64,000 bases of DNA from NCBI RefSeq assembly GCF_013141825.1, contig NZ_RZNH01000020.1:27493-91492 (forward strand), in the 5' to 3' direction. Every line of letters begins with the position of its first letter. The stretch's first letter is position 1. Positions 6,068-63,636 of the stretch are shown here, piece after piece. The notes under the pieces are model-generated. The model made no database searches, was not told where the DNA came from, and was given only the letters and a program-made list of their open reading frames with translations. The stretch comes from Marinifilum caeruleilacunae. GTDB lineage: Bacteria > Bacteroidota > Bacteroidia > Bacteroidales > Marinifilaceae. A program made the translations under genes and the position numbers.

Positions 6068-6083
6068 ATAATTTACAAATTAG

Positions 6084-6114
6084 AAGCCTGTCACAAAACG
6101 ACAGGCTTTTTCTT
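6084..6114 (+). terminator. Rho-independent terminator of the efflux operon
   Basis: Perfect 9-bp inverted repeat (AAGCCTGTC at 6084-6092, GACAGGCTT at 6100-6108), loop of 7, then a T-rich tail. It lies 17 bp after the pump stop codon. Confidence 0.85.
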
Positions 6115-6203
6115 TATCCCATTTTTAACAAATCAATAACAAGCCAGATTATTCTGTTTCAACGATTAATGGTATATTTAATACTCACAAGTCTTATTTG
6201 TAC

Positions 6204-21178: not shown

Positions 21179-21277
21179 ACCTTTCCCCACAATTTCAGGA
21201 TTAAAGCCAGAGCCTGGTTTAATTTTTGGTAAAAAAAAGTACCTTTACGCCTATTAATCAACAAACAGATAGCAGAG

Positions 21278-21751
21278 ATGGGCAAAAATCAGATAATCGT
21301 ATATACATCAGGCACTTTTGACATGTTTCATAGCAATCATTTAAAAATGATTAATTATGCCAAAGGACTAGGTGATGTTTTAATTGTAGGCGTAAGTACC
21401 GATGAGTTGGTAAGTTCGTATAAAGCTCCTCCTATTGTACCATTCGAAGAGCGTCTGGCCATTGTCGAGGGACTTAAAAATCCTGATATTGTAATCCCGC
21501 AAAGATCTTTAGATCACAAGGAAATCGTCAAAAAATTGCATATCGATATTTTTGTTGTTGGTGACGACTGGACAGGAAAGTATGACTATTTGGAAGAATA
21601 TGGAGTAAAAGTATTCTATTTTCCATATGGAGCAGGAACCAGTTCAACTGCACTAAAAAAGAAAATCTACGATAGTTATGCCGAGATTAAAAAACGCATT
21701 GATAATCATGCAAATCCGGACATAGTTCCAAGTAACGGACAAACGAAATAA
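21278..21751 (+). CDS. TagD-like cytidylyltransferase (glycerol-3-phosphate cytidylyltransferase family)
   Basis: 157 aa, slightly longer than TagD (about 130). N-terminal YTSGTFDMFHSNHLKMINYAK matches the FDLLHxGH core, but the second site is HSNH, with Asn where HxGH has Gly. VGVSTDEL, PFEERLAIVEGL, VVGDDWTGKYDYL and the terminal GTSSTALKKKI (family RTxGISTT-like) support the family. In the nucleotidyltransferase superfamily this motif binds CTP or ATP. The neighbours suggest CDP-glycerol or a similar polyol. Confidence 0.82.
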   Translation: MGKNQIIVYTSGTFDMFHSNHLKMINYAKGLGDVLIVGVSTDELVSSYKAPPIVPFEERLAIVEGLKNPDIVIPQRSLDHKEIVKKLHIDIFVVGDDWTGKYDYLEEYGVKVFYFPYGAGTSSTALKKKIYDSYAEIKKRIDNHANPDIVPSNGQTK

Positions 21752-21777
21752 TTAGATCACCTCATAATACACAGCAT

Positions 21778-22503
21778 ATGAAATACGCTTTTGTTAGCGG
21801 TTCTACCAAAGGAATCGGAAAAGCAATTGGTGTAAAACTTTTAAAGGAAGGATATTTCGTTTTATTCAATTACTCGAATTCAGAAGAAGCTTCAAATGCC
21901 TTAAGAAAAGAATTGAATGTCGACTTCCAAGGTCGTTTTGAAATTTTAAAGGCAGACTTGTCGGATGTACTGAAAATAAAAGAAGTAGGCAATCAAATTA
22001 GCGAGATTTTGCCACAAATAGACCTTTTGGTTTTTAATACAGGCCTAACCGATAGATCCCTTTATGGAGAAATAGAGATTGAGAATTGGATGAAAGTTTT
22101 CAATGCCAATTTAAATGTTCCATTCTTTTTAATGCAGGAACTAAAAGAGAAAATGACGAATGGTTCCAACATCGTTTTTATAGGTTCGATGCTAGGAAAT
22201 ATCCCACACTCGGTTTCTATTGCCTATGGTGTCAGCAAAAGTGCAATCCACTCCTTGGTGCAAAACATGGTTAAATTTCTGTCGAAAGATCAGATTCGAA
22301 TCAATGCCATTGCTCCAGGCTTTGTAGATACAGATTGGCAAAAAGATAAGCCTGACTGGTTGAGAGATAAGATAAAAGGAAAAATTGCCCTGAACAGATT
22401 TGCAGAAGAAAATGAAGTTGCCGAACTCTGTTGGCACATCACGAATAATCAATATCTAACCGGACAAATAATTCAAATGGATGGTGGATATTGCAGTGCA
22501 TAA
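21778..22503 (+). CDS. Short-chain dehydrogenase/reductase
   Basis: 241 aa SDR, classical FabG-like. Cofactor site VSGSTKGIGKAIG, NAG-type motif as FNTGLTDRS, catalytic Ser in FIGSMLGNIPHS, YGVSK (Tyr-x3-Lys), and the C-terminal YLTGQIIQMDGGYC. It starts 26 bp after the TagD-like gene and is co-directional with both cytidylyltransferases. In Haemophilus Bcs1 an SDR and an IspD-type domain make CDP-ribitol, so a keto-pentose-phosphate reductase role is possible. A simple FabG-like role is not excluded. Confidence 0.87.
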   Translation: MKYAFVSGSTKGIGKAIGVKLLKEGYFVLFNYSNSEEASNALRKELNVDFQGRFEILKADLSDVLKIKEVGNQISEILPQIDLLVFNTGLTDRSLYGEIEIENWMKVFNANLNVPFFLMQELKEKMTNGSNIVFIGSMLGNIPHSVSIAYGVSKSAIHSLVQNMVKFLSKDQIRINAIAPGFVDTDWQKDKPDWLRDKIKGKIALNRFAEENEVAELCWHITNNQYLTGQIIQMDGGYCSA

Positions 22504-22530
22504 AAAAAGAGGGCTAAACCCTCTTTTTTT
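22502..22530. terminator. Bidirectional terminator overlapping both stop codons
   Basis: Perfect 12-bp inverted repeat, A-run plus GAGGG at 22502-22513 and CCCTC plus T-run at 22519-22530, loop CTAAA. It overlaps the SDR stop (22501-22503) and the stop of the opposing gene (22529-22531). Confidence 0.88.
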
Positions 22531-23659
22531 ATGCTCTTATTTCATGTTGCTTCATCTTAGATGCATTTATCGAATGAAGATTTTCCAATAAATCCACCAT
22601 TCGAACCGACACCTTTCCGTCTACAGGGCCAATAATTTCATGAGTACATTCTGCTCTTCGATCCTTGTAGTTACAAGGATTTATTAATTCCTCTTCAACA
22701 GCTGCCTTTAGGTCTTTATAACGCCAGATGTTCTCGCCCAAATTTCGAAACTGATCCATAGCTGGTTCCATTCTTTTCTTGAACTTACGTTGTCCAAATA
22801 ATCTATATGTAAGTCGTAATTTCAAGAAACGATTCAGAATCACAGGTTTATCCAATGCTGCAAATTCAAATACCACCGAAGACTCATCAGAAATCAACAG
22901 GTCTGCCAATGCATAAAATGGTACAATATTGTAATCGTCGAATCCAGCCACATAAACATTATCATACTTAGCCCAATGCTCCAGCTTTCTTCTTTGGTTC
23001 TTATATTTTTTGCGAATATAAGAGAAGAAATGAGGTTTAATAATCAGGTTATAGTCTTTAAATTGCTCAGGAAAGTTATCAGGCATTTTTTCCAAAGAGC
23101 TTGGATAAAAGGTAGGAGCATAAAGAATCGTCTTTTTGTTCTGGTCTAAACCGTAATGATTATACAGTTTCTTAATTTCACCAGGTTTGTATGCCAAAAC
23201 ATCATCCAGCTTTGAAAAACCAACATTCTCCCATATGGTTTTTGCATCGGGGTAGAGTTCATTCAATCTTCTTAAACGAAAATCTCCTTCAACAAATCGA
23301 ATATCAAATTTATTTTTCTCTTCGGTAAAAGCACTTAATTTGGTTCCAATACCATGAACAATTAGAACTGATTTTTTGTACGAAATATCAACATTTGGGT
23401 GTTCATCTCCCCCACATATTAGATATTCAACATTTGCATTCTCTAATCCTTTTGTTCCAAGTTGAAAAGGCTGATTCTCAAGTTCGCATATCTTTACAAT
23501 TTTACTGTTCTGATCAAAGATGTCTCTACTGGTAGTTCCCTTCAAAACAATTAAATATGATAAGCCTCGCCTTTGCAACTCTTTAGCCACAGGTAAAAAT
23601 TGTGGCAAAAAGTAAATTTGCTCAGTATAAAACACTGCAAAATACTTTGTCACACTCAT
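22529..23659 (-). CDS. CDP-glycerol glycerophosphotransferase-like (TagB/TagF family)
   Basis: About 376 aa. GT-B-like two-lobe fold: VFYTEQIYFLPQFLPVAKEL in the first lobe; the second has YAPTFYPSSLEKM, LIIKPHFFSYIRKKY and LADLLISDESSVVFEFAALDKPVIL, the signature of TagB/TagF polyol-phosphate transferases (the SDxSS...E...KP pattern). It probably transfers glycerol-phosphate or ribitol-phosphate from a CDP-polyol to a lipid-linked glycan. The frame opens 15 codons earlier, at 23704, but MSVTKYFAVFY (23659) is the likely start. It faces the three possible CDP-polyol genes tail to tail. Confidence 0.82.
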   Translation of the reverse strand: MSVTKYFAVFYTEQIYFLPQFLPVAKELQRRGLSYLIVLKGTTSRDIFDQNSKIVKICELENQPFQLGTKGLENANVEYLICGGDEHPNVDISYKKSVLIVHGIGTKLSAFTEEKNKFDIRFVEGDFRLRRLNELYPDAKTIWENVGFSKLDDVLAYKPGEIKKLYNHYGLDQNKKTILYAPTFYPSSLEKMPDNFPEQFKDYNLIIKPHFFSYIRKKYKNQRRKLEHWAKYDNVYVAGFDDYNIVPFYALADLLISDESSVVFEFAALDKPVILNRFLKLRLTYRLFGQRKFKKRMEPAMDQFRNLGENIWRYKDLKAAVEEELINPCNYKDRRAECTHEIIGPVDGKVSVRMVDLLENLHSINASKMKQHEIRA

Positions 23660-23910
23660 AAATACGTTAATTAGTTGTAAGTAAGCGATCTTTCTACAAA
23701 GCATTCAGTATTAAATTCATAAGTAGTCGGATCGGCCCAAAGATAAACAACTGATTGAATATATTACATTTTTGTTTCCTTTTTATTGCTCTATGGCCTT
23801 AATTCAATCGGATTTTAAATTAAGAAACTGTCTCGATAAGTTATTTATAGAAGGCTTGCGGAGTTTAATAATTAAATTTTGAGATTGGAATTATTAATTA
23901 ATAAATCACT

Positions 23911-48000: not shown

Positions 48001-51000
48001 ATGACCAAAACTCTCCGAAAAAACCCTTTTTATCATCTGGTTTTAATCCTGGTACTTCAATTGGCGTCGGTAGTTGCATTTGCCAATACAAGCAATAAAG
48101 TACCAAGTAACAGTAAAATTCGTGTACAACTTAAGTACTATCACCAATTCCAATTTGCAGGCTACTACGCCGCTCTTCATAAAGGTTTTTACCAAAACGA
48201 AGGTCTCGATATTGAATTAATTGAAGGAGGAACTGTTAATGCGGTTGACATTGTATTAAACGGAGATGCAGAATATGGAATCAGTGCTAACGACATTTTG
48301 ATAGAAAGAATTAATAACAAGCCCGTTGTACTATTGGCTTCCATCTTTCAAAGTTCACCTTCTATTTTCCTAAGCTTAAAGAAATCGAATATTAATACGG
48401 CTCACGACCTAATCAACAAAAGAGTAATGTTACTCGACGAGTTTCGAGATCCCGAACTATTGGCCATCTTTTACAAAGAAGGAATCAAGCTGGATAATGT
48501 ACTACGCATTACCACCACCTATGATATTAAAGACTTGCTGGAAGGGAAAACAGATGTTCTAAATGCCTATTCTACAAATGAACCTTATTTCCTAAAAGAG
48601 CAGAACATAGCCTACTCCATTATTTTTCCCCAGAATTATGGAATTGATTTTTATGGCGATGGAATATTTACCACCGAAAAAGAAATTGAAGAGAATCCTG
48701 AAAGAGTAGATGCTTTTCTTCGTGCCAGTAAACAGGGTTGGGAGTATGCCCTACAAAATCCTGATGAAATTATCGACATCCTGATTAAGCAATATGGTGT
48801 AAAAAAAAGTAAGGAACACTTACGATTCGAAGCTGAAGAAATCAGAAAACTGATCTTAAACGATTATGTGGAAATTGGGCACATTAATCCGGGAAGATTG
48901 GACAATATTGCCAGGATTTGCGCACAAATGGGAATGATTCCTCCCAATTACGACCTAAGTGGATTTGTTTATAAACCAGAACTTTTCAGAACACCAAAAT
49001 GGTTAAAATGGGCTTTAATTGTTTCGATAATTATCATATCAATTATACTCATTATCCTATCCTATTTGTACCTTTTTACCAAACAATTAAAAAAAGCGGT
49101 TGATCGACAAACTGCTGATATTAGCAGAAAAAATGAAGAGTTGATTACATCTGAAAAACGATTTAGAGAGGTGATTGAAAATCTACCTTCGGGCGCTATT
49201 TTGGTGGAAGGCGAAAAGCTGTTTACCAACAAAAAAGTATTCGAAATTACGGAATATTTGAATGATGAAACACCTAATGTGAACACTTGGTTCAGCACAT
49301 TGTACCATGAGAACAAAGATCTAAACTATCAGATCTATAAAAACAGCAAACAAGAGAATTTTAAAAGCCCTACAATCACGTCTATTAGAACAAAATCGGG
49401 ACAAATTAAACAAGTAGAGTTTCACGCCTATAGTTTCGACAGCAAAGAAATCTGGCTGATGAACGATATCAGCAAAAGAATTGAAACTGAACAAGCATTA
49501 ATTGCAAGCGAGTACAAACTACGAACCTACATTGACGAGTCGCCAAATGGGCTGGTGATTTTCAACAGCAATACAAAAGTGAAATTTGCCAACCCTGCAT
49601 TCCTGCAACTTTTAGATATCGATTCAAGCACCGAAACAGAGTTCTACATCCGGGATTTCTTTTCGCCTCTCCAACTTGCCAAAAATATTGAGATGATGGA
49701 ACAACTCATCAGCACTGGTAAAGTGCAAGGGGAAGTAATGGTTAAATCGATTCAAAACAAAAACTTCCCAGCTTTTATTAGTGCAGTTAAGTTACACGAA
49801 GATGAATTCCTGGGATTTGTAATGGATACCTCATCGCTGAAAAAAGCAGAAAACGAGCTTAAAATTGCTTTGGAGAAAGCAGAAGAGAGCGACCGGTTAA
49901 AATCTGCCTTTCTTGCCAATATGAGCCATGAAATTCGAACTCCAATGAATGGAATACTTGGCTTTAGTCAGCTATTACTTAAAGAAAATTTAGAACAGGC
50001 CAAGAAAGAACAATACATCGATATTTTAAATCAGAATGGAAGGCAACTCCTGGAAATCATTAATAATATCATCGATATCTCATACCTTGAGGTGAGACAA
50101 CTCAAAGTCTTCAACAGTTCTTTTTCTATCGCGAAATTATTTAGAGACCTGGACACCTTTTTTAAAGTGGAGAAACAAAAGTATCATAAAGAAAAACTTG
50201 ACATTAGCTTTACCAACAAAGTTCCGGAACAACTCGATATCATTGAATCTGATATTGGTAAGATTAAACAAGTGTTAATTAACCTTGTAAACAATGCGCT
50301 TAAATTCACCAAAGAAGGATACATCAAAGTGAGCGTGAACCTTATTGAATCAGAGTTACAATTTGCAGTTGAAGATTCTGGCATCGGAATACCAAAAGAG
50401 AAGCATGATATCATATTTGAGCGTTTTGGACAAATCGAAAATGTATACACGCGGCAATTTGGTGGCGCAGGCCTTGGACTCCCTATTTCGAAAGGAATTA
50501 TAGAATTGATGGGTGGCAAGTTAGAACTTCGCTCTGATGAAAATAAAGGTTCTACTTTTCTATTTAATATCCCTGTAAAGGAAACTGAAATAGAAGTGCC
50601 TGCTAAAAGTGAAGAGCTTAATAAATTTGCCTGGAAAGGAAAAAACATCCTTATTGTTGAAGATGTGGATATCAACATTAGTTTTTTAGAGGAACTAATG
50701 GATAACACCAATGCCAATGTTAGCATCTGTAAAAATGGCAAAGAGGCAGTTGACTTATGCGAGTCGGGCTATCTGCCTGATTTAATCTTAATGGATATAC
50801 AAATGCCCGAAATGAATGGCATTGAGGCCACAAAAGAAATTCGTAAAATTTTACCATCTACGCCTATTATTGCCCAAACGGCTTATGCGTCCGAAAACGA
50901 CAGGGAGTTAGCCTTATCCGCAGGTTGCGACGAATTTTTCTCGAAACCTCTTAACTCCGATAAATTAATGAACAGGATGGATCAGTTCTTATTGGCAAGC

Positions 51001-51006
51001 AGCTGA
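48001..51006 (+). CDS. Hybrid sensor kinase with NMT1/THI5-like periplasmic domain
   Basis: 1001 aa. Signal segment at 10-28. Residues ~35-320 are an NMT1/THI5-like solute-binding domain (VQLKYYHQFQFAGYYAALHKGFYQNEGLDIELIEGG, EYGISANDILIER, NKRVMLLDEFRDPELLA). One TM near 333-357, coiled coil, two PAS domains (about 390-490, 500-610), HisKA with [21 protein letters not shown] (His near 644), HATPase (NLVNNALKFTKEG, DSGIGIPKEK, GGAGLGLPISKGI), and a receiver domain (ILIVEDVDINISFLEELM, LILMDIQMPEMNG with Asp near 934, and the Lys in FFSKPLNSDKL). It could sense a thiamine-pyrimidine-like ligand, but the ligand is unknown. Ends 25 bp inside the opposing gene. Confidence 0.9.
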   Translation: MTKTLRKNPFYHLVLILVLQLASVVAFANTSNKVPSNSKIRVQLKYYHQFQFAGYYAALHKGFYQNEGLDIELIEGGTVNAVDIVLNGDAEYGISANDILIERINNKPVVLLASIFQSSPSIFLSLKKSNINTAHDLINKRVMLLDEFRDPELLAIFYKEGIKLDNVLRITTTYDIKDLLEGKTDVLNAYSTNEPYFLKEQNIAYSIIFPQNYGIDFYGDGIFTTEKEIEENPERVDAFLRASKQGWEYALQNPDEIIDILIKQYGVKKSKEHLRFEAEEIRKLILNDYVEIGHINPGRLDNIARICAQMGMIPPNYDLSGFVYKPELFRTPKWLKWALIVSIIIISIILIILSYLYLFTKQLKKAVDRQTADISRKNEELITSEKRFREVIENLPSGAILVEGEKLFTNKKVFEITEYLNDETPNVNTWFSTLYHENKDLNYQIYKNSKQENFKSPTITSIRTKSGQIKQVEFHAYSFDSKEIWLMNDISKRIETEQALIASEYKLRTYIDESPNGLVIFNSNTKVKFANPAFLQLLDIDSSTETEFYIRDFFSPLQLAKNIEMMEQLISTGKVQGEVMVKSIQNKNFPAFISAVKLHEDEFLGFVMDTSSLKKAENELKIALEKAEESDRLKSAFLANMSHEIRTPMNGILGFSQLLLKENLEQAKKEQYIDILNQNGRQLLEIINNIIDISYLEVRQLKVFNSSFSIAKLFRDLDTFFKVEKQKYHKEKLDISFTNKVPEQLDIIESDIGKIKQVLINLVNNALKFTKEGYIKVSVNLIESELQFAVEDSGIGIPKEKHDIIFERFGQIENVYTRQFGGAGLGLPISKGIIELMGGKLELRSDENKGSTFLFNIPVKETEIEVPAKSEELNKFAWKGKNILIVEDVDINISFLEELMDNTNANVSICKNGKEAVDLCESGYLPDLILMDIQMPEMNGIEATKEIRKILPSTPIIAQTAYASENDRELALSAGCDEFFSKPLNSDKLMNRMDQFLLASS

Positions 51007-52448
51007 ACCTTTGATTTTCGTCCGTTTTTATGTCTAAAGCCACGGCGCTCCATTTTACCCCAGTTTCTATTCCCCCTGGCATATTGTATGTTCCCTTTTA
51101 TGGAGAAAAAGAGTGATATTGGATGCAGGATAAATGGCTCAAGCACTGCTGCAATCCATAGTCTGAATACATCACCTTTTCGTTCGTACCTATGGAAAGT
51201 TAACTCCTCGTACAAGATGGCCCAGGTGGTAAAAAACAGGGCGAAAGTATACACAAAAAGAAAGGTGATTAAGATAAAGTTTAAGCTTAAATTTCCGGTG
51301 GCATAAAGTACAATTGCATAAATGATACCAATGAGCTCAACCAATGGAGCCAACCACTCAAACAAAAACCAAAATGGATAACCCAACATGCCCATTGCCC
51401 CATAACGCGGCGAAAAGAAAATTTTAGAATGATCGGTTAAGGTTTCGATGGTTCCTCTTGTCCACCTGCTTCTCTGGCGACCAAAAGTTGAAATATTACT
51501 TGGTGCCTCGGTCCAGCATAAAGGATCGGGCACATATTCAATTTTGTACTTTTCTCTTTGTTCCGACATGTAACGACGAATACGAACCACCAGCTCCATA
51601 TCTTCTCCAATGGTATGTGCATAACCACCACTTTGCACCACCACATCGCGATCGAACATTCCCATGGCTCCTGAAATAATAATCAGACCATCGAGCTTGG
51701 CCCATGCCATTCGTCCCATTAAAAATGACCGGGTATACTCCAAAACCTGCATACGTGCCAATAAATTTTTAGGCACACAAACTTCTGCAATACGACCATT
51801 TTCTATCACACAAGAATTGGCAATACGTACCACTCCACCCGCAGCAATAACTCTCCTGTCCGTTCTTTCCAGGAAAGGCTTCACAAGCTTTAGCACAGCA
51901 TCAGGTTCAAGTATCGAATCGGCATCAATGGCCATAAACAAGTCTTTATCCGAAACATTAATAGCAACATTCAATGCATCTGCCTTCCCACCATTTTCTT
52001 TATCAACAACAATTAAATTCGAATAAGTTTCAATTTTCGATTTGTAAACTCCACGAACCTCTTTGGTTTCAATTTCATGATTTAATGCGAAATTTACCTT
52101 CTCCAGATCGAAGGCTTTTTGAAGCTCTTCAAAAGTTTCATCAGTACTGCCATCGTTCACAACAATCACATCGAAATTATTGTAATGAATGGTGTATATC
52201 GATTCCACATTATCGACAATGGTTTTGGCCTCGTTAAAAGCGGGCACCAATACCGAAACCGATGGTGCAAGAGGAGAATCCAGAATTACGCTGTAGTCAA
52301 CAAAACTATTCTTCTTTAGGTAATGATTTAAAGCAATACCCGACACAATACTTAGTGCTGTATAACTAAATACCAAGAGAAATGCATAAGATATAAATAC
52401 CTTATCCAGAAAATAGCTTATAAATCTTATTAACTCGTCGTAATTCAT
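50982..52448 (-). CDS. Membrane-bound processive family 2 glycosyltransferase
   Basis: 488 aa. TM near 15-40, then a GT2 domain (55-310): VSVLVPAFNEAKTIVDNVESIYTIHYNNFDVIVVNDGSTDETFEEL, MAIDADSILEPDA (DxD), GEDMELVVRIRRYM (ED catalytic base), and FGRQRSRWTRGTIE (QxxRW). Several TM follow (about 355-455). This set is that of processive synthases such as PgaC, HasA and BcsA. It likely polymerises and exports a sugar polymer. Last gene of a five-gene operon, 4-bp overlap (ATGA) with the HEAT gene. Its 3' end overlaps the hybrid kinase by 25 bp, tail to tail. Confidence 0.9.
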   Translation of the reverse strand: MNYDELIRFISYFLDKVFISYAFLLVFSYTALSIVSGIALNHYLKKNSFVDYSVILDSPLAPSVSVLVPAFNEAKTIVDNVESIYTIHYNNFDVIVVNDGSTDETFEELQKAFDLEKVNFALNHEIETKEVRGVYKSKIETYSNLIVVDKENGGKADALNVAINVSDKDLFMAIDADSILEPDAVLKLVKPFLERTDRRVIAAGGVVRIANSCVIENGRIAEVCVPKNLLARMQVLEYTRSFLMGRMAWAKLDGLIIISGAMGMFDRDVVVQSGGYAHTIGEDMELVVRIRRYMSEQREKYKIEYVPDPLCWTEAPSNISTFGRQRSRWTRGTIETLTDHSKIFFSPRYGAMGMLGYPFWFLFEWLAPLVELIGIIYAIVLYATGNLSLNFILITFLFVYTFALFFTTWAILYEELTFHRYERKGDVFRLWIAAVLEPFILHPISLFFSIKGNIQYARGNRNWGKMERRGFRHKNGRKSKVQLLANKN

Positions 52449-53644
52449 ATTCTAGGATCTAATACGTGGTTGATAATCCCTTTTAGTTCTTCATCGGCAT
52501 TTACTGCCAATGCATTTAATCTATTTATTCCTGTTTCACCCAATTTTGCAATAGACTTACAGGCTTCCATTCTAATTTTAAACTCTTCGTTTTTTAGTTT
52601 GTCTTCCAAAAAGTTAAGCTCGGTATCCATTTTCAATTGACCGATAGATTTCAAAATATTCAATTGATTTGGCAATTCTTCGAGATGATAAATTTCTTTC
52701 AGCTTGGCAATGGCCTCGTAACTCTCCAGGTCTACAAGAGTTTTTATCACTTTTCCCTTCACATAATCATTGTCATGATTGATCAGTTCAAGTACATATG
52801 GTGCAGCCTGTTTCTGCTTCAAAATCCTAATCATATCCAAACTAAACATCACTACCGAATCGTTCCAATGATTGAGCCACAAATGAAATTCAGGAATCTC
52901 GATTCTGTTCTTTCGAATCAGGTCGAACACATTAATTTGCTCCCAAACCGTAAAAGGCTTTTCCTGCGAATCCAAAAAGGCAAAAGGAACAAATGGCAGT
53001 AATTTAATCAAGCCCATTTGCGATTCGATTCGTAAAATATCGTTATTCTTTTGTTGGAAGGATATGATTTTTTGATTCTCAGATTTAACCCTCATATGAC
53101 TCAATTCGCGAATTCCAAAAATCTTCTTGTTCCAGGCAAACTTGCCCAGCTTTCGAATCGATTCCTTATCGAGCTTAAAATCCACATACAAGTTCCTGAT
53201 TTTATCGCTCACCTCTTTATTTTCTGCCTTATCAATCGCCATAAGTACATCAATCAATACATTTCGATGAAAACGACTTGATTTCAGTTTTTCCTTATCG
53301 GCAACCTCATTCTCCTCTTTGCTCCCAATTAAATATCCGATCACTGCCTGTGAATACTTTACGTGCAATTTATTGTACTTGGTTTTTCTGTACGCCAGGT
53401 ACAATTTAGATATAATAATGGTTGGCAAGAGCAGAACCAAAGCCACAAAGAATATCATGATCATGTAAATAATCATTCTATTCAAAGCATTATAAGGCAG
53501 TCTCTCGAAGGTATAGTTAATCACTGATTGAAAGAACTCAACAATGCCTTTCAGAAAATCTATGACAATAAACAAGAGATCAGGAGCTACTCTAAGCCAT
53601 TCCTGCAATTCAATCTGGATGATATGTTCATTAAATATCAACAT
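52445..53644 (-). CDS. Membrane-anchored HEAT-repeat protein
   Basis: 399 aa. A TM at about 50-75 (MIIYMIMIFFVALVLLLPTIIISKLYLAY), then a long cytoplasmic or periplasmic helical region. The last ~150 residues hold HEAT-like helical pairs: MKIPYVLELINHDNDYVKGKVIKTLVDLES-type units, ELNFLEDKLKNEEFKIRMEACKSIAKLG, and RLNALAVNADEELKGIINHVLD. HEAT repeats make protein-protein scaffolds. Its position between CotH and the GT2, 4-bp overlapping the latter, suggests a scaffold or co-factor of the synthase. Not otherwise recognised. Confidence 0.75.
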   Translation of the reverse strand: MLIFNEHIIQIELQEWLRVAPDLLFIVIDFLKGIVEFFQSVINYTFERLPYNALNRMIIYMIMIFFVALVLLLPTIIISKLYLAYRKTKYNKLHVKYSQAVIGYLIGSKEENEVADKEKLKSSRFHRNVLIDVLMAIDKAENKEVSDKIRNLYVDFKLDKESIRKLGKFAWNKKIFGIRELSHMRVKSENQKIISFQQKNNDILRIESQMGLIKLLPFVPFAFLDSQEKPFTVWEQINVFDLIRKNRIEIPEFHLWLNHWNDSVVMFSLDMIRILKQKQAAPYVLELINHDNDYVKGKVIKTLVDLESYEAIAKLKEIYHLEELPNQLNILKSIGQLKMDTELNFLEDKLKNEEFKIRMEACKSIAKLGETGINRLNALAVNADEELKGIINHVLDPRI

Positions 53645-53645
53645 C

Positions 53646-54959
53646 TTACTTATTTCTCTTGTTCTTTATATTCAACTCTTTCTTCACAGCTTTAATTCTC
53701 TTGTGCGTAAACTTCTTTAATCCCGGCACAAAGGCTCCCGGGTCATTTTCATCTCCCAAATGCGAGTGCAGGTTTTTTTCAAAATCGGCATTGCTATACA
53801 TTTTCATGCTGTCCTGGTATACAAACTTTCGAATCATAAGCGAAAGCCGATCAATTTCTGCACTCATCGCATCATCAGTAAATTTGCTTTCCAGTAATTC
53901 TCCAATGTATTTTGAATAAAAATCTCTGTATTTCTTTATCCCAAACAAGGTCTTCATTAAGGTATTCTCATACCTGTCGTTCAGGAAAAACACGCTTAAA
54001 TTCTCAGCCTCGTCCATGGTAAAAACCGGACTAAAGGCACAAAATGCATAATTACCATCGTATGGAATCCATTCAAACCTATTATCATGAGTATTTTTAT
54101 ACAAGTAATAATTATGGCGATACAAGAGGTTCATGGCATCTATATTCATGAACAAACTTGTGATGGCAAATATTTTTAAACATTCCGGCACATTAAAGAT
54201 CTGTTGAAAATGCTCCTGGGCATCCTCATCCATCTTCACACTTCTGTCCAGTGTTTTAATCAAATCCATTAACTCATGGTAATGATTCTCATCCTTCGAT
54301 TTTAACTTGTAGGCGCGTGCATACTTACTTCTCTCTTCACCTTGATAAAGCAAAGTTGCCTTGGGTTCACCTTTAAAAAATGCTCCTGTTTTGTTCCCGA
54401 AATTTCTTTGCACAAAGCCCTTATTAATCTCCTCTACCAAAACATATAAGCCGAAAAGCTCACCGTTCACATACACATTCGCATATGCAGCTCTTGGAAC
54501 CGGCAATCCTTCCGATCGCATAAAATCGAGGTACAATTTCTCACGCATAAAACTCGGGTCTTTAAAAGCATTGTTCAGGTTGATGGTTTTTAATCCATCC
54601 AATTTTTGCTTTTTCACGAACTCCCCAAAGTTTATTTTTATAGACTTCTTCCTTCCGGGATAATAGTCGTAAGACGACTCCCCTTTGATTCTAACTCCGC
54701 ATGAATAGTACTTTTTCCCGTTGACCTCAACATTTCCCTGCAAGTATCTTTTTTTGCGCATTGAATCGCGCATCTCCTTATGATTCACCAATGAATCCCA
54801 TGCTGAGCACTGCAGAAAACTTATCCTGATCTCATGCACTTTATCCTCTCCAAACAGTTCACTTCCAGCCATACTCTTCCCCTTATCCTCTTTGCCTGTA
54901 GCCAGCAAAACAGGAAGGAACATCGCAATGCATATTGATATGAGTACAACTTTCCGCAT
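53646..54959 (-). CDS. Exported CotH-family kinase
   Basis: 437 aa with a signal peptide (VVLISICIAMFLPVLLATGK). The CotH fold is shown by GVRIKGESSYDYYPGRKKSIKINF, INLNNAFKDPSFMREKLYLDFM, YANVYVNGELFGLYVLVEEINKGFVQRNFG (the K/E region), and the metal-site-like RFEWIPYDGNYAF. CotH proteins are atypical kinases known from spore coats; homologues sit in exported-polymer loci. Here it is 6 bp after the YaiO gene and 1 bp before the HEAT gene. Export implies it acts on an envelope protein or polymer. Confidence 0.88.
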   Translation of the reverse strand: MRKVVLISICIAMFLPVLLATGKEDKGKSMAGSELFGEDKVHEIRISFLQCSAWDSLVNHKEMRDSMRKKRYLQGNVEVNGKKYYSCGVRIKGESSYDYYPGRKKSIKINFGEFVKKQKLDGLKTINLNNAFKDPSFMREKLYLDFMRSEGLPVPRAAYANVYVNGELFGLYVLVEEINKGFVQRNFGNKTGAFFKGEPKATLLYQGEERSKYARAYKLKSKDENHYHELMDLIKTLDRSVKMDEDAQEHFQQIFNVPECLKIFAITSLFMNIDAMNLLYRHNYYLYKNTHDNRFEWIPYDGNYAFCAFSPVFTMDEAENLSVFFLNDRYENTLMKTLFGIKKYRDFYSKYIGELLESKFTDDAMSAEIDRLSLMIRKFVYQDSMKMYSNADFEKNLHSHLGDENDPGAFVPGLKKFTHKRIKAVKKELNIKNKRNK

Positions 54960-54965
54960 TATTCT

Positions 54966-56264
54966 TTAGAGTTGATATGATAATTTTATTGAAAGCGTTA
55001 CAATTCTTCTTTTCTCATCCACCTGGTACTCTTCTTTTTCATAGCCTGCACGAAGCAGGTAGGTCAGGCGCTTGTCAATCAACTGATCCTGGTAAGCCAA
55101 TCGCACTTTCCAGCTATCGTATTTATAGGTGTCAAAATTGGAAACATTGCCTCGAGCCTCATCTGGCGAAGTACCGGTTCCCAACTCCAGGCCTATGTAT
55201 TGTTTTGCATCTCTCAAATACCTTCGGGTAATTAAAAACACCGATCTTGAAACATCGCTATCCTTTGGCGTAAAGTATCCTCTCAGGGAAAACCAGTAAT
55301 TGCGATAATATTTTCCCACCGATCCGGTATAGATGTACACATTTTTATGTCCTGAACTCCCATCGAATCGTAAGAATCTCGCACCAGCCGACACTTCAAA
55401 TTTGGCAGGTAATTTTTGATAGAATTCCGCTCCTGCACGATGCTCCGGGAACAAATCATCAGCCGAATATCCATAATTCAGATACAAATAATTGGTTGCT
55501 GATACTCTTGGATAGGCATCAATTTCAAATTGTTTTGAAATTTCATTCGACCATAAGGCTTCTCCATCTTTTACCAAATCACCAAAATTCACTTTCCCGG
55601 TAAGGCTTCCCCATGAATTTCTTCTTTGCAATTGAACTGAAGTAACATGCCAGCGTCTAACGTAAGGCTCTTCGAAATGTTCAAAATCATGTTTCAGAAT
55701 CAGAGAATACTTTCTTTTAGCAGATTTATAGGCTTTAAAAAGTTTGATCCCTTCCTCGCTGCCCGGGTTAATTTCAAGAAGTTCGTTAATGGTTTGTAAT
55801 GATTTTGCCTCCAGTCCCTTCTCCTGCTGTATCTTAATTTTCTTTAGCAGGATATCCTCTTCTCTTGGGTAGAACGACTGACCATAATCGCAATAAAACA
55901 GAGCCTGCGACAGATCACCAGCCCATTTTTCCAAATCGATAATGGCAAGTATTGCATCTTTATTGTCGTAATCATTCTCCAAAACAAGTTGCAGTTCTTT
56001 TCTTCCTTTCTCATAAGATTTCTCCCAGGCATGGGTTCTCCCAATTAAAATTCGGGCATCATGATAATTGGGATCTTCTTCCAAAATTTTATAGCAAATT
56101 TTCCTGGCTTCTTCTTTTTCTCCATTAAATGCGAGTTGTTGAGCTTTTCTAAATTCAAGCGTCACTGGTCGCGACTGAAGCGAATCAATTTCCTGTGCAC
56201 TCAATAAATGTGAGCACAATAACAGCAGGCACAGGCTAATGGTTAGAGGTAAATATTTTGCCAT
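54966..56264 (-). CDS. TPR and YaiO-type outer-membrane beta-barrel protein
   Basis: 432 aa. Signal peptide (LPLTISLCLLLLCSHLLSAQ). Residues ~35-180 hold TPR-like helices (EFRKAQQLAFNGEKEEARKICYKILEEDPNYHDARILIGRTHAW, AKSLQTINELLEINPGSEEGIKLF). Residues ~190-432 alternate in strands (WHVTSVQLQRRNSWGSLTGKVNFG, ... SIKLSYQL) ending in an aromatic-Gln-Leu, the YaiO/UPF outer-membrane porin type. It is a natural candidate for the outer-membrane exit of the polymer made by the GT2, as AlgE/PgaA-like TPR-barrels are for other polymers. Confidence 0.85.
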   Translation of the reverse strand: MAKYLPLTISLCLLLLCSHLLSAQEIDSLQSRPVTLEFRKAQQLAFNGEKEEARKICYKILEEDPNYHDARILIGRTHAWEKSYEKGRKELQLVLENDYDNKDAILAIIDLEKWAGDLSQALFYCDYGQSFYPREEDILLKKIKIQQEKGLEAKSLQTINELLEINPGSEEGIKLFKAYKSAKRKYSLILKHDFEHFEEPYVRRWHVTSVQLQRRNSWGSLTGKVNFGDLVKDGEALWSNEISKQFEIDAYPRVSATNYLYLNYGYSADDLFPEHRAGAEFYQKLPAKFEVSAGARFLRFDGSSGHKNVYIYTGSVGKYYRNYWFSLRGYFTPKDSDVSRSVFLITRRYLRDAKQYIGLELGTGTSPDEARGNVSNFDTYKYDSWKVRLAYQDQLIDKRLTYLLRAGYEKEEYQVDEKRRIVTLSIKLSYQL

Positions 56265-56297
56265 ATTAATGTAAACTACAATTTGGTTTTTATCTGG

Positions 56298-57470
56298 TTA
56301 ATCCAGGTATTTTTTCTTTCTTTCTTGCTTCGCAGATATACTGTCCATAACAGTTTCCATAAAGGGTCGATAATATTTCCAGAAAAACATTTTTCTGTCT
56401 TTTACTTGGTTTGGACTGTAAAATGCACCACTAATGGTCTCAATTCCTCTGAAATACGATGAATAAATCCCCATTGGATTATCCGAAAAATCGCAGGCAA
56501 AATACAGGAATCGATAATCCTTATCGTGCTCGATAATCGCAGGGAATTGACTTGGCACTTTTAAGGAATCCATCAATTTTCTGCCATCGGCATTCACATC
56601 AATTTCGAAATTTGCCAGCACATGATTCCTTTCATCCGTACTGTTAATATCGAACCAATAAGGATAATACACTTTCTCAGGAACATTATATTCGAGTTGA
56701 GTACTCAGCTCCGATCTCAAAATTGGAAATTTATCATTCAGATGAGTTTTATCCTCAAGAATAATGATCCGTTCCCTGTTATCCACCAATACAATTCCTC
56801 CCTTTTTGAAATTGTACTTTTCTTTATAATTCTTTTCATACAAATCCGGAATCCATTTCGGAATCTCAGGATCCAAAACGGTATCCAATGTTGAGTAGTA
56901 TTTTCCGACCCAACCAGTCCATTTTACACCCAGCAATTCCTCGGTTTGTCTTCTAATTACCGAAGAAGTTGGAGATGCAAACAAATTAAATTCAGCAATA
57001 ATGGTTTTGCCTTTTCGCTTTAATTCCCTCAAAAGATTAAACTCATTGGCTTGCAATCCTCCATAAAACAAGGAAATTGTATCCTTGCCATAATCGGGAT
57101 GATCTTTCCAGTTGGAATTGTAAATGCCATAAGTATCAGCAAAAAACACTACATCCAGCGAATCTGCCAGTCTTTCACTGCTTCCTTCACCATAAATTTT
57201 CAGGTCCTTAATTACGTATTCTCCATCCTTATCGGGATGAAAACCAAGAAAATCTTCCGCAAAATCGTACTCCTCTCCCGTGCTCTTCACCCATTTGTTT
57301 TGGTTGGCAAGCCAGAAAAATGACAAATGCTCCGAAAAGTTCTTTTCCGGAGTGGTTTTATCGATTACGAGCAAATTGATGGGAATGTCTTTCTCCATCT
57401 TCCAGACAATCCATGAGATGACCGGAATAAGTAGAATCAGAAAAACAAATACCCTGACTAACTTCCACAT
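56298..57470 (-). CDS. Membrane-anchored periplasmic protein of unknown function, first gene of the exopolymer-like operon
   Basis: 390 aa, not recognised. One N-terminal TM (VRVFVFLILLIPVISWIVWKM) then a periplasmic domain. Segments such as LDVVFFADTYGIYNSNW, LLRELKRKGKTIIAEFNLFASPTS and RELKxKGK resemble the flavodoxin-like or GATase-like Rossmann folds seen in polymer-biosynthesis loci (for example the PelA N-terminal type), but no catalytic motif is clear. It starts the operon: 33 bp to the YaiO gene. It likely modifies or senses the polymer; the assignment is open. Confidence 0.7.
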   Translation of the reverse strand: MWKLVRVFVFLILLIPVISWIVWKMEKDIPINLLVIDKTTPEKNFSEHLSFFWLANQNKWVKSTGEEYDFAEDFLGFHPDKDGEYVIKDLKIYGEGSSERLADSLDVVFFADTYGIYNSNWKDHPDYGKDTISLFYGGLQANEFNLLRELKRKGKTIIAEFNLFASPTSSVIRRQTEELLGVKWTGWVGKYYSTLDTVLDPEIPKWIPDLYEKNYKEKYNFKKGGIVLVDNRERIIILEDKTHLNDKFPILRSELSTQLEYNVPEKVYYPYWFDINSTDERNHVLANFEIDVNADGRKLMDSLKVPSQFPAIIEHDKDYRFLYFACDFSDNPMGIYSSYFRGIETISGAFYSPNQVKDRKMFFWKYYRPFMETVMDSISAKQERKKKYLD

Positions 57471-59654: not shown

Positions 59655-61634
59655 ATGAAAAACTTTACTATGATTAGAACATTCGCCCTGGCGATCACGA
59701 TTTTTTTCGTGAGTAACCTGGCTATTGCCCAGAAAGCCCCTATTAAATACGGCAAGGTTAGTATGGATGAACTATTAATGAAAACTTATGAGAAAGACAC
59801 CTCAGCCGTTGCAGTTTACCTGTGTGATTATGGTGTAAGCGAAATTCCGTTTATGACCACTACTTTCAGTTTCGATTACAAACACACCCGAATCATGAGA
59901 ATTAAAATCCTGAAAGATGAAGGTCTTGACTATGGTGATTTGGAATTCTCCTTTTACAAAGGCAGTTCAAATGTAGGTTCGGTTAAAGCCTGTACCTACA
60001 ACCTGGAAAATGGCAAAATTGTAAAAACAAAAATCAGTGCGAAAGACAGGATACTGGAAAAGTCTTCGGATGATGTTTATACCTACAAACTGGCATGCCC
60101 GAATGTGAAACCAGGCTCGGTTGTTGAGTTCATGTATTCCATTTCTTCGGATATTCCACCATATAAAATGGGTCCTTGGTATTTCCAAAAAAGTATTCCA
60201 ATTGTTTGGAGCGAGTTCAGGGTAAATGTACCTGAATATTTCCATTACAAAAAAAATGGAAAGGGTTACCTGACTTTTGATGTAAACGAACACACTTATG
60301 GCAACGGAAGTATTGCTCCACAGGAGCAATTTAGTATCGATAGATATCGCTTTGTGGTAAAAGATGCACCAGCATTTAAAAAAGAGCCATATACCACATC
60401 GAGCAAAAACTACATGTCGGCCGTAGAATTTGAACTTGCCGGCGTACAGGAGATCAGAGGTCCATATCACGATAGAATCGGTAGCTGGGAACAAATCAAT
60501 AAAGATTTGATGGAGAATCAATACTTTGGTGTTCAGCTAAAATCTGGTGGTTTCCTAAAAGATGTTGTAGCCGAAATCAGCGCCAAAGCAGAAACAGATG
60601 AAGAAAAAATTCTGGCTGCCTTTAACTATATCAAGGCAAATATGAAGTGGAACGATTACTATGGCAAGTATGTGACAACCAGTTTACGAGCTGCCTTTAA
60701 AGAGAAAAAAGGGAATGTTGCAGATATCAATCTCATGCTGGTTGTTTTACTGAATAAATTAGGTCTTAAGGCCGATCCGGTAATTCTTAGTACCCGAAGC
60801 AATGGTTTGTTAAGCTTGTTCTCGCCTAGCGAAAGAAAGTTTAACTATGTAATTGCCAGCTGTAAGCTAGGCGAAAACAGAATTTACCTGGATGCTACAG
60901 ATGCAAACTGTCCGTGTAATCTTTTGCCGGAGCGTTGTATCAACGATAAAGGTAGAGTTATCAGTAGTGCTGGTTCCTTTTTTGTAGACATCGAATCGAA
61001 AAGTGTTTCGAAATCGGCAACCATTGCAAAATTAAACTTGAGTGAAGATGGAATGGTTAGCGGAAATGTAGATCTATCGCTGAATGGATTTACTGCACTA
61101 CAGTTTAGAGATGCTATTCAAAATAAGAGCGAAGACGAACTTCTGGAAACCATGGATGAAGCTTATGAGCTGATTGATGTTGAAAGTGTAGAGCTTGAAA
61201 ACCTTAAAAATGTTGAAAAAAACGTGGTTTCAAAAATGGAAGTGGAACTGAGCGAAGAGGTAGAAAGTGTAAATGACCTGATTTACTTCAATCCTTTTGT
61301 TATCAACAAAATTGATGAAAATCCTTTCACACTGGAAGAGAGAAAATACCCAGTTGATTTTACCTATCCAATGGACAGAACATTTATGCTTGAACTTACT
61401 GTTCCTGAAGGATACACATTGGAAAGCAAACCGGCTCCGGCAAGAATTAACCTTCCTGAAAAATCAGGTCAGTTCATGTATTCAGTAAATCAGACTGGTA
61501 ACAAAATTATGGTAGTAAGCCGTTTTAAAATTAACAAACGCACCTTCTTTTTTGACGAATATGCCAACCTGAAAGAGTTCTACAATCTTGTTGTAGCAAA
61601 ACATGCTGAAATGCTTGTTCTGAAAAAAATCTAA
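59655..61634 (+). CDS. DUF3857 / transglutaminase-like protein lacking Cys and His
   Basis: 659 aa with signal peptide (TFALAITIFFVSNLAIAQ). DUF3857 at ~50-230 (FDYKHTRIMRIKILKDEGLDYGDLEFSFYKG, YKLACPNVKPGSVVEFMYSIS). Transglutaminase-like core at ~300-420, but where its neighbour has GDC-K it has GNVAD, so Val355 replaces the catalytic Cys; where the neighbour has NH it has NY398; the third acid is kept (LDATD413). It is therefore probably a non-catalytic member with binding or structural use. Paired with the next gene. Confidence 0.85.
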   Translation: MKNFTMIRTFALAITIFFVSNLAIAQKAPIKYGKVSMDELLMKTYEKDTSAVAVYLCDYGVSEIPFMTTTFSFDYKHTRIMRIKILKDEGLDYGDLEFSFYKGSSNVGSVKACTYNLENGKIVKTKISAKDRILEKSSDDVYTYKLACPNVKPGSVVEFMYSISSDIPPYKMGPWYFQKSIPIVWSEFRVNVPEYFHYKKNGKGYLTFDVNEHTYGNGSIAPQEQFSIDRYRFVVKDAPAFKKEPYTTSSKNYMSAVEFELAGVQEIRGPYHDRIGSWEQINKDLMENQYFGVQLKSGGFLKDVVAEISAKAETDEEKILAAFNYIKANMKWNDYYGKYVTTSLRAAFKEKKGNVADINLMLVVLLNKLGLKADPVILSTRSNGLLSLFSPSERKFNYVIASCKLGENRIYLDATDANCPCNLLPERCINDKGRVISSAGSFFVDIESKSVSKSATIAKLNLSEDGMVSGNVDLSLNGFTALQFRDAIQNKSEDELLETMDEAYELIDVESVELENLKNVEKNVVSKMEVELSEEVESVNDLIYFNPFVINKIDENPFTLEERKYPVDFTYPMDRTFMLELTVPEGYTLESKPAPARINLPEKSGQFMYSVNQTGNKIMVVSRFKINKRTFFFDEYANLKEFYNLVVAKHAEMLVLKKI

Positions 61635-61648
61635 TTAAATAATACTTC

Positions 61649-61690
61649 ATGATATCAATGCTTGGGCTTAGGCTTAAGCCTTGATATCAT
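61649..61690 (+). promoter_or_regulatory. Long hairpin between the two DUF3857 genes
   Basis: Perfect 10-bp stem ATGATATCAA (61649-61658) / TTGATATCAT (61681-61690) with an inner GGCTTAAGCC palindrome (61671-61680). GGCTTAG (61665-61671) can instead pair with CTAAGCC (61707-61713) in the next gene's leader, so two structures exclude each other. No T-run, so not a simple terminator. Confidence 0.55.
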
Positions 61691-61704
61691 TCAATTCATA
61701 GCCC

Positions 61705-61718
61705 AACTAAGCCTAAAT
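61705..61718 (+). repeat. Shared 14-bp leader motif, copy 2
   Basis: AACTAAGCCTAAAT repeated before the second DUF3857 gene, ATG at 61726; see copy at 59637-59650. Confidence 0.6.
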
Positions 61719-61725
61719 TTAAACT

Positions 61726-63636
61726 ATGAAACTACATTACTTTTATTTCCTGATTGCCGCCTTGTTGTTCTCAACAAACCTATCGGCAAAAAAAACACCC
61801 ATGTACCCGGTGAGCGATATCCCCGAAGAATTAAAAGAAGGTGCCAATGCGGTGATTCGTTTAGACAGAACCAATATCAAAATTAATTCGATTTACGATA
61901 TTGACTACAGGCACGAAACCGCCATTACAATTTTGAACGAATCTGGCGATTCTTATGCCGATGTGATGGTTGGATACAGCAAAACCATATCGCTTAGCAA
62001 CCTACAAATTGCTTTGTACGATGCACAAGGTGCATTGATTGAAAGGATAAAAAATCATGAAATTAATGATTACTCTGCCTCTGGTGAATCCATGTTTTCG
62101 GATGACAGGGTAAAACACTATGAACCCATTCAAAAGAATTATCCTTATACCATAGTGTATTCGTACACCCAGAAATTAAACGAATACACAACTATCGCTG
62201 GTTGGTATCCATATGCAGGCTCTAAATGTTCTGTGCAGAAAAGTTCGTATACCATTAGTTCGGCCAATCCTGAATTGTTCAAGTACAAAATGTACAATTC
62301 AGATCAAAAACCAATTATCCGTAAAGCAAGTGGAATCACTAACTATTCCTGGGAAGCCAATGATTTGAAAGCATACAAATATGAACCCTATGCATCTCCG
62401 TACTCATTAAGAGGTCCGTTTTTGCGTGTTGCTCCTACCACTTTCCAATATGATAAAATCAATGGAAGTACGGCATCGTGGAACGATTTGGCAAAATGGT
62501 TTTCAAAACTAAATGAAGGAAGAGATGTGCTGGATGAAAATACCATCGCCGAAGTTAAGAATATGGTAAAGGACTGCCCTACAGATTTCGAGAAAGTGAA
62601 AAAGCTGTATGAATACATGCAGAATAAAACCCGCTACGTGAGTATACAGGTAGGTCTGGGAAGTCAGCAGCCTTTCCCTGCACAGTATGTGCAAGATAAA
62701 TCGTATGGAGATTGTAAGGCACTATCGAACTACATGAAATCCATTTTAAAAATTGTTGAAATTCCTTCATACTATACCATTATTACTTCGGCAAATAAAC
62801 AAAGAGATCTTGACACAACCTTTGTTCGTAACTTTGGAAACCACATTGTACTGATGGTGCCAATGCAAAAAGATACGGTTTGGCTGGAGTGTACCAGCAA
62901 GTTTAGCCCCTGTGGTTTTCTGGGTTCAAGTACCGACGACAGAACAGTTCTTGCCATTAATGAAAATGGTGGGAAGCTTGTAAGAACATCGGTATATAAA
63001 ATGGAAGACAATACCCAGGAGAAAAGAGGTGAGATTATCGTAAAGGCAGATGGTACTGCCGAGGCACACATCACCGAAGTATGCAGAGGTCTTCAATATT
63101 CATACCTGGCCGGCATGTCGCACCTGAGTCCCGAAGACCAGAAGAAAAAGATTTACAGCGACCTGGAACTTCCAGACTTCAAAATTAAGAGTCATGCGGT
63201 ATCGAAAGAACTTACAAGGATACCAAGCTCAACTCTGGAACTTGATTTAGACATTAGAAATTATGCTTCCAAATCGGGAGACAGACTCTTCATTCCTCTG
63301 AACCTGATCAACAGGAGAAGCAATGTTCCCAAAAAAGTGAAAAATCGAGAAACAGACATTTATTACAAACGCGAATATTGCGATACCGACACCATCCATT
63401 TTAGCCTTCCTGAAGGTTATGAAATGGAAAGTATACCGGAAAAAAAGGTGATTGAATCAGATTTTGGAAGCTACACGAGCGAAGCAATAAAGGATGGCAA
63501 TAAAGTCACCTATATCCGCAAGATGGTCTACAAAAAATTCGAATACCCGGCAGAACGCTACGACGAGCTCAGAACCTACATCAAAGCAGTGGTAAGAGCT
63601 GACAAGGCGAAGTTGGTGTTGAAGAGAAAAGTCTAA
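61726..63636 (+). CDS. DUF3857 / transglutaminase-like protein with intact Cys
   Basis: 636 aa with signal peptide (YFYFLIAALLFSTNLSA). DUF3857 at ~45-240. Transglutaminase core with Cys330 in SYGDCKALSNYMKSIL, His373 in GNHIVLMV, and Glu388 (WLECTS) where Asp is usual, so a potentially active enzyme or peptidase. The C-terminal ~200 residues are beta-rich (LIPEGYEMESIPEKKVIESDFGSY-type, as in the first copy). Its last two codons begin an 8-bp tandem repeat. Confidence 0.88.
   Translation: MKLHYFYFLIAALLFSTNLSAKKTPMYPVSDIPEELKEGANAVIRLDRTNIKINSIYDIDYRHETAITILNESGDSYADVMVGYSKTISLSNLQIALYDAQGALIERIKNHEINDYSASGESMFSDDRVKHYEPIQKNYPYTIVYSYTQKLNEYTTIAGWYPYAGSKCSVQKSSYTISSANPELFKYKMYNSDQKPIIRKASGITNYSWEANDLKAYKYEPYASPYSLRGPFLRVAPTTFQYDKINGSTASWNDLAKWFSKLNEGRDVLDENTIAEVKNMVKDCPTDFEKVKKLYEYMQNKTRYVSIQVGLGSQQPFPAQYVQDKSYGDCKALSNYMKSILKIVEIPSYYTIITSANKQRDLDTTFVRNFGNHIVLMVPMQKDTVWLECTSKFSPCGFLGSSTDDRTVLAINENGGKLVRTSVYKMEDNTQEKRGEIIVKADGTAEAHITEVCRGLQYSYLAGMSHLSPEDQKKKIYSDLELPDFKIKSHAVSKELTRIPSSTLELDLDIRNYASKSGDRLFIPLNLINRRSNVPKKVKNRETDIYYKREYCDTDTIHFSLPEGYEMESIPEKKVIESDFGSYTSEAIKDGNKVTYIRKMVYKKFEYPAERYDELRTYIKAVVRADKAKLVLKRKV

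Follow-up and report, generated by a model that had tools for sequence, protein, structure and literature searches.

A candidate synthase-dependent exopolysaccharide cassette of Bacteroidota in which CotH-family and LtaS/OpgB-like proteins probably alternate

Background

Among the described synthase-dependent systems, the cellulose (Bcs) machinery of Escherichia coli combines a glycosyltransferase family 2 (GT2) synthase and outer-membrane exit through a barrel with tetratricopeptide repeats (TPR) with BcsG, a membrane-anchored periplasmic phosphoethanolamine transferase that is associated with the synthase (PMC11379886). A TPR-barrel exporter is also found in the Pga/Ica systems. In Gram-positive bacteria, a CotH gene lies beside the synthase-dependent Pel polysaccharide operon (PMC7112168, PMC12345266); genes for a polyphosphate polymerase and a DUF4956 protein accompany this CotH (PMC7112168), the deletion of which in Streptococcus changed the Pel levels and reduced aggregation (PMC12345266). 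A GT2 and the CotH-domain protein Sfz6 have been tied to the proposed exopolysaccharide of the zetaproteobacterial twisted stalks (sfz; PMC8250860). A survey of synthase-dependent systems makes, in its main text, no mention of CotH, YaiO or HEAT proteins (PMC7112194). Here we consider a five-gene operon that brings these three families together with a processive GT2, found in a 64,000-nucleotide stretch of Marinifilum caeruleilacunae DNA (contig NZ_RZNH01000020.1), the whole of which is called the window below. From comparison of this operon with its relatives in Bacteroidota, we argue, with a probability of roughly 0.55, that it encodes a new type of synthase-dependent exopolysaccharide system, in which the exported CotH would modify the polymer with phosphate or with some phosphate-linked group.

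The operon and its protein families

The operon is listed below in the order of transcription, with window positions.

50982-57470, minus strand: operon of five open reading frames, in the order first gene, YaiO TPR-barrel, CotH, HEAT, processive GT2
56298..57470, minus strand: first gene; 390 aa, no Pfam or NCBIfam family, probably periplasmic
54966..56264, minus strand: second gene; 432 aa, signal-like N-terminus, TPRs and YaiO outer-membrane beta-barrel, candidate export pore
53646..54959, minus strand: third gene; 437 aa, kinase-like member of the CotH family, predicted to be exported; variable 'modification slot'
52445..53644, minus strand: fourth gene; 399 aa, membrane segment at residues 61-79, then HEAT repeats
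50982..52448, minus strand: fifth gene; 488 aa, processive-type GT2 synthase, PgaC/BcsA-like, predicted to be membrane-embedded

The open reading frame list and the recomputed distances agree with the coordinates and spacings of the preliminary description of this DNA: in the order of transcription the genes are 33, 6, 1 and -4 bp apart, that is, the HEAT and GT2 genes share 4 bp, and ATG is the start codon of all five. The protein families named there (YaiO, CotH, HEAT and a GT2 with QxxRW) were likewise recovered by Pfam matches and in the aligned synthases. Specifically, the second protein matches YaiO (PF19413, 1.9e-52) and TPR_19 (4e-08) and scores 134.1 bits with TIGR04390, where the cut-off is 32; the third matches CotH (PF08757, 1.1e-58) with 199.7 bits at a curated cut-off of 23.8; the fourth matches HEAT_2 (1.4e-09) and has a strong hydrophobic segment ahead of the repeats; and the fifth matches PF13641 (1.6e-23) and carries hydrophobic segments at both ends. 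The QxxRW, DxD and GED motifs are invariant in all 18 aligned synthases.

A conserved synthase core in Bacteroidota

Relatives of the operon were collected as loci with a GT2 score of at least 580 bits, which yielded 67 loci, the window itself not being counted. Three loci were dropped for lying on the same contigs as others (L056, L060 and L140, with L069, L068 and L072, respectively), and so was L059, from a sibling genome, the GT2 of which is identical to that of L070 at 482 of 485 residues; the surroundings of a weak, broken first-gene match in genome G557 were also left out. The open reading frames were scored with profiles built in this analysis, and neighbourhood counts refer to a distance of up to six genes from the synthase, the view being short at a few loci, such as L112 and L144.

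The HEAT gene directly precedes the GT2 gene on the same strand in 65 of the 67 loci, which represent at least 24 family codes; the exceptions are L156 and L099, where HEAT is fused to an LtaS-like protein on the other strand. YaiO is present in 56 loci and the first-gene protein in 51, the latter share being biased upwards as the loci were found via the first-gene family or the synthase profile. A lone receiver protein (in L076, PF00072 with 1.9e-29) is in view in 42 of the 50 loci outside the family of the window, f1, and the window operon has none. Within Marinifilum, to which the window is assigned (first-gene relatives in seven contigs of the genus are 78-86% identical), the complete set stands in the same order in six of the seven contigs, and the remaining one stops inside CotH; among six Labilibaculum contigs, two have all five genes, three have only CotH remnants and one ends after YaiO. 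Between the window and M. breve, the identity is 95% for the synthase, 86% for the first gene, 82% for HEAT and 73% for CotH.

Thus, the gene-order comparison called for in the preliminary description places the set well beyond this one genome, and the five genes, which it had treated as a unit, do hold together in Marinifilum; across the phylum, however, the constant unit is HEAT-GT2, whereas CotH is replaceable. Judging from gene order, a wider Bacteroidota cassette is conserved across many families, and the Marinifilaceae have it in the form of these five genes; the conserved unit is HEAT-GT2, mostly with YaiO, the first-gene protein and, outside the family of the window, the receiver. In the relatives L100 and L118, a LysM or SPOR domain lies N-terminal to the HEAT repeats, which suggests that the N-terminus of the HEAT protein is outside and the repeats inside, in the cytoplasm.

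Two enzymes beside one core

A CotH gene is present in 19 of the 67 loci and directly precedes HEAT in 17 of these; in the remaining two, a CotH with a type IX secretion system (T9SS) tail heads the cassette (L108) or the CotH gene is on the other strand (L116). The order YaiO-CotH-HEAT-GT2 is seen in the families f1, f103, f117 and f130, and CotH-HEAT-GT2 in f120. The window CotH matches the solved CotH structure 5jd9 (5.8e-21), and its acidic pair, the Asp residues of NID and PYD, aligns with NFD and PWD of that protein; we take this to be the active-site pair D228 and D251 of Bacillus subtilis CotH. Both acidic positions are kept in the window and in all 17 CotHs directly upstream of HEAT (by eye in L143 and L149). 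As read by eye, the N-termini resemble those of exported proteins: the window CotH has a signal-like one, whereas L143 and L149 have lipoprotein-like ones. A tree was built of 26 CotHs (L064, L068, L141, L143 and L149 left out), in which the 13 slot CotHs included group together, along with one long-branched outsider, and the T9SS-type CotH of L108 and that of L116 fall apart from them.

In 20 of the 67 loci, the neighbourhood encodes, instead, an LtaS/OpgB-like protein with its catalytic half, and in four more (L083, L084, L086 and L145, the last near a contig end) only the front part of such a protein. These proteins match PF00884; the GRT[FY] motif, in which the threonine presumably occupies the position of the catalytic threonine of LtaS, is kept in 19 of the 20 (GRSF in L153), and GDH in all 20. 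Among solved structures, the L076 protein matches 3lxq, the uncharacterised Vibrio VP1736, best (1.7e-19), followed by 6hr5, a sulfatase (3.2e-07), and 2w8d, which is lipoteichoic acid synthase 2 (8.2e-06). In NCBIfam, the models of LtaS or phosphoglycerol transferase I rank above the sulfatase models in six of six proteins, so the assignment as plain sulfatases was rejected on these scores; since all six stay far under the equivalog cut-offs (at best 48.1 of 970 bits for LtaS and 49.6 of 572 for phosphoglycerol transferase I), they belong to neither equivalog, and it is probable that they are phosphotransferases forming a family of their own. As to their placement, the order YaiO-(LtaS-like)-HEAT-GT2 occurs in L152 and L153, both of genus g404; in Pedobacter and Daejeonella the gene follows GT2. 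Fusions are found to GT2 (L049 and L052, both of genome G150), to HEAT (in L099) and to TPRs (L055). With one LtaS-like query, no match at E <= 1e-3 was obtained elsewhere in the genome of the window, or in the window itself; the same query has matches in 43 of 58 genomes, all with 22-35% identity, which are probably general superfamily members, save for 43% in genome G321.

CotH and the LtaS-like protein never occur together in the 67 loci, and 24 loci have neither: four carry CotH remnants, three are cut beside the slot (L110, L142 and L146) yet were counted here, and 17 show neither enzyme. The first CotH profile scored the T9SS-type CotH of L108 at only 24 bits and was rebuilt; distant CotH or LtaS-like forms may still escape the profiles used. 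Taken together, CotH and the LtaS/OpgB-like enzyme probably alternate as an exchangeable phosphate-transferring slot beside the same core.

Several observations concern the LtaS-type cassettes themselves. The LtaS-like protein is reduced to its first 236 residues in Pedobacter helvus, P. ureilyticus and Nubsella; this front part is kept as an open reading frame of equal length in L083, L084 and L086, and may have a role of its own. In L086, genes for FkbH-like, carrier, MBOAT and SGNH proteins adjoin the first-gene homologue, and the same MBOAT is found in L079; acylation possibly replaces the LtaS-like function there. Three further cassettes share a membrane protein of about 373 aa (L045, 7122-8243, with homologues in L047 and L048), which in L045 has an HCxxGxxR stretch that we regard as phosphatase-like, with no Pfam phosphatase match.

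Exchange and loss of the slot enzyme

On a tree of 64 synthases (L110, L142, L145 and L146 left out; L116, a CotH locus in the slot counts, entered as 'none' in the trees), a single clade of CotH cassettes is rejected (approximately unbiased test, p 1.7e-7), and at least four changes between the CotH and LtaS-like states are needed. This test has to be read with the cautions that the tree was a quick one with long branches meeting, that the group was named only after a first tree had been made and that remnants were counted as CotH. Since the CotH cassettes do not form one clade by synthase while the 13 slot CotHs group together, the slot enzyme appears to have been exchanged between lineages.

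Loss is seen as well. In Labilibaculum K2S, L. manganireducens and L. euxinus, a C-terminal scrap of CotH lies between open YaiO and HEAT genes, and L087 retains a 95-aa piece; the four neighbour genes of the operon remain open in this lineage. CotH is intact in L. filiforme. As the four remnant loci form one group on the synthase tree, CotH was probably lost there once. Genome G321, taken as Labilibaculum K2S, has no CotH match and possesses a second cassette, L114, with an LtaS-like protein. By this comparison of gene content, the putative decoration is replaceable and sometimes dropped, while the core is kept.

Proposed function and alternative explanations

In the mechanism that can be envisaged, the GT2 would polymerise a glycan and move the chain across the inner membrane, with the membrane-anchored HEAT protein, which in most relatives is encoded near the lone receiver, as its partner and probable regulator. 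The TPRs of YaiO and the periplasmic product of the first gene would lead the chain to the YaiO barrel, through which the polymer would exit. The periplasmic CotH would decorate the polymer with either phosphate or some phosphate-linked group, a job that in other families would be done by the LtaS/OpgB-like phosphotransferase, much as BcsG decorates cellulose. Of the features expected of synthase-dependent systems, the processive GT2 motifs and the TPR-containing outer-membrane barrel are both present, and synthesis and export of an exopolymer, as already proposed in the preliminary description, is probably what the cassette does, for which the gene content and the conservation of gene order provide good support. 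The phosphorylated polymer, suggested there as one option, has become more likely than before because CotH alternates with an LtaS/OpgB-like protein beside the same core. Going further, CotH could be a glycan phosphotransferase that phosphorylates an exported polysaccharide beyond the cytoplasm, draws on some donor that is not free ATP and can be swapped in evolution for an LtaS/OpgB-like phosphotransferase within a single secretion machine; this extension is doubtful and is put forward only tentatively.

A number of observations weigh against the proposed phosphate decoration by an exchangeable enzyme. CotH enzymes are ATP-dependent kinases and the periplasm is not expected to hold ATP, so an exported CotH kinase would be left with no obvious donor. 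The absence of overlap between CotH and the LtaS-like protein is not significant by family (chance 0.08; 7 and 7 of 26), and accordingly no proof of mutual exclusion is claimed. Only two of the 20 LtaS-like genes, both from one genus, sit between YaiO and HEAT. Loci with the same slot label cluster strongly on the synthase tree, with 4 changes as compared to 18.6 in shuffles, so that the exchange between lineages would be real but rare; the decay of CotH is one lineage, not four events. In the 17 of 67 loci with neither enzyme there is no remnant or cut at the slot, which implies either that the decoration is not essential or that distant forms were missed. Finally, the first-gene family occurs with no GT2 of this type in 14 of 27 genomes tested, all of the order of the window.

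The donor problem would be less acute if the CotH fold performed another transfer, for instance of a nucleotide or some other group, or served as a non-catalytic polymer-binding protein. Indeed, kinase folds with other chemistries exist, and no ATP source is obvious in the periplasm; for mere binding, though, the acidic pair kept in the window and in 17 of 17 slot CotHs would be needless, and we regard this possibility as distinctly improbable. Alternatively, CotH might be a protein kinase that acts on a periplasmic or surface protein, such as YaiO, the first-gene protein or a matrix protein, and thereby controls synthesis or export. This is what the family match and the conserved acidic positions would suggest, and Bacillus CotH acts on spore-coat proteins and regulation of Pel by protein phosphorylation has been suggested in Gram-positives (PMC7112168). 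Yet CotH was lost in one lineage in which YaiO and the remaining three genes are still open, and the core in other families is accompanied by the LtaS/OpgB-like enzyme. To our knowledge, the LtaS/OpgB-like family does not act on proteins; on balance, a protein substrate seems unlikely, albeit worth keeping in mind.

The product, rather than the enzyme, could also differ from a released exopolysaccharide and be a glycolipid or a glycan bound to the cell wall or to protein. LysM and SPOR domains bind peptidoglycan, and in relatives they are found on the HEAT protein (L100, L118) or on the GT2 (L111); a processive-type GT2 with QxxRW and a TPR-barrel of the YaiO family, in contrast, fit the export of a polymer, which makes a bound product very unlikely in our judgement.

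The cassette points to an exopolysaccharide machine of Bacteroidota in which the Bcs or Pga partners are replaced by a HEAT protein, an orphan protein of the periplasm and, in most cases, a lone receiver. If the decoration of an exported polysaccharide by CotH or its LtaS-like counterpart is correct, the alternation would give CotH a concrete role apart from spores, the phospho-decoration of polysaccharide, and this role would be relevant to the CotH genes of Pel loci, which are so far unexplained. An exported CotH also raises the question of a kinase working where ATP is not expected; the glycan-phosphotransferase version, if true, would amount to a new CotH activity and a new class of phosphorylated exopolymer.

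The first gene and the surroundings of the operon

The first-gene protein has a single hydrophobic segment (residues 4-22) and is probably periplasmic, anchored by one N-terminal membrane helix. It has no match at E <= 0.1 in Pfam or NCBIfam, 29 family members searched against both gave only weak, scattered matches, and a sequence search of the PDB with the family gave none at E <= 1; across 29 homologues, 28 columns are invariant. A structure model of moderate quality (mean pLDDT 68.3, pTM 0.70) has as its best Foldseek match 4pxy, a ThuA-like protein (E 1e-4, TM 0.36/0.53, root-mean-square deviation 8.3); the four matches at E <= 0.001 are three ThuA-like chains and Salmonella STM1381, with TM 0.30-0.36 by query length and deviations of 7-13. 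This hints at a weak likeness to ThuA-like (amidotransferase-like) alpha/beta proteins, as a clue to the fold and not to the function. A single-sequence search detected the family in 11 of 296 genomes from the phylum; with a profile, it was detected in 26 of 395 genomes from the class, one of these matches being weak and broken, and in 24 of 198 from the order. Each count includes the genome of the window. For 27 genomes with the family but no synthase in view, a search of 45 genomes, relatives included, placed a synthase elsewhere in 13 (E <= 1e-100).

Upstream of the first gene, the promoter pattern TTG-N17-23-TAnnTTTG does not occur within 210 bases. At its other end, the operon meets a convergent gene for a hybrid sensor kinase with an NMT1-type domain (window 48001-51006), which shares 25 bp with the 3' end of the GT2 gene; in the six Marinifilum contigs that reach that far, the operon is followed by a gene of about this length. 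Elsewhere in the window, genes for IspD-like, cytidylyltransferase-like, short-chain dehydrogenase/reductase and CDP-glycerol glycerophosphotransferase-like proteins (20483-23704), followed by glycosyltransferase genes up to 26810, look like teichoic-acid-type chemistry in a Gram-negative bacterium, and two adjoining DUF3857-transglutaminase proteins are encoded at 59655-63636.

The other of the two CotH matches in the genome of the window lies in locus L061 (G000:C154:1-15000, 3121-6679, minus strand), in a module of VTC (polyphosphate polymerase-like), DUF4956, DUF2490 barrel and CotH genes; it resembles the set beside Gram-positive Pel operons, but with a beta-barrel gene.

Comparison with known systems

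The preliminary description knew of no described counterpart for this set of genes, and none turned up in the searched openly licensed papers, a scope that leaves out most subscription journals. Any novelty would lie in the gene set as a whole and not in the pairing of CotH with polysaccharide genes, which is already known from the Gram-positive Pel loci (PMC7112168, PMC12345266). The operon differs from the latter in its synthase and export genes, and in the genome of the window the polyphosphate polymerase and DUF4956 accompany the second, separate CotH. In the sfz system, Sfz6 is an SH3-CotH protein that is partly encoded away from the cluster, and YaiO does not appear in the text (PMC8250860).

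As to the Pga/Ica systems, PgaC_IcaA is the best NCBIfam model for the window synthase; nevertheless, the score of 132.8 bits lies under the cut-off of 422.3, and no deacetylase match was found among the five proteins, so that identity with the poly-N-acetylglucosamine (Pga) system, with its PgaB deacetylase, was rejected. Identity with the cellulose system was rejected as well: the window synthase scores 34.9 bits with the CelA model, where the cut-off is 699.1, and the partners are missing, no BcsB, BcsZ or PilZ match being listed in Pfam or NCBIfam for the five window proteins. Instead, the operon has the HEAT and first-gene proteins, with CotH in the place of the transferase; for the substitutes of CotH in the relatives, the nearest named families are the LtaS/OpgB-type phosphoglycerol transferases of the sulfatase fold. 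By analogy, then, the nearest mechanistic model for the proposed system is BcsG-modified cellulose (PMC11379886).

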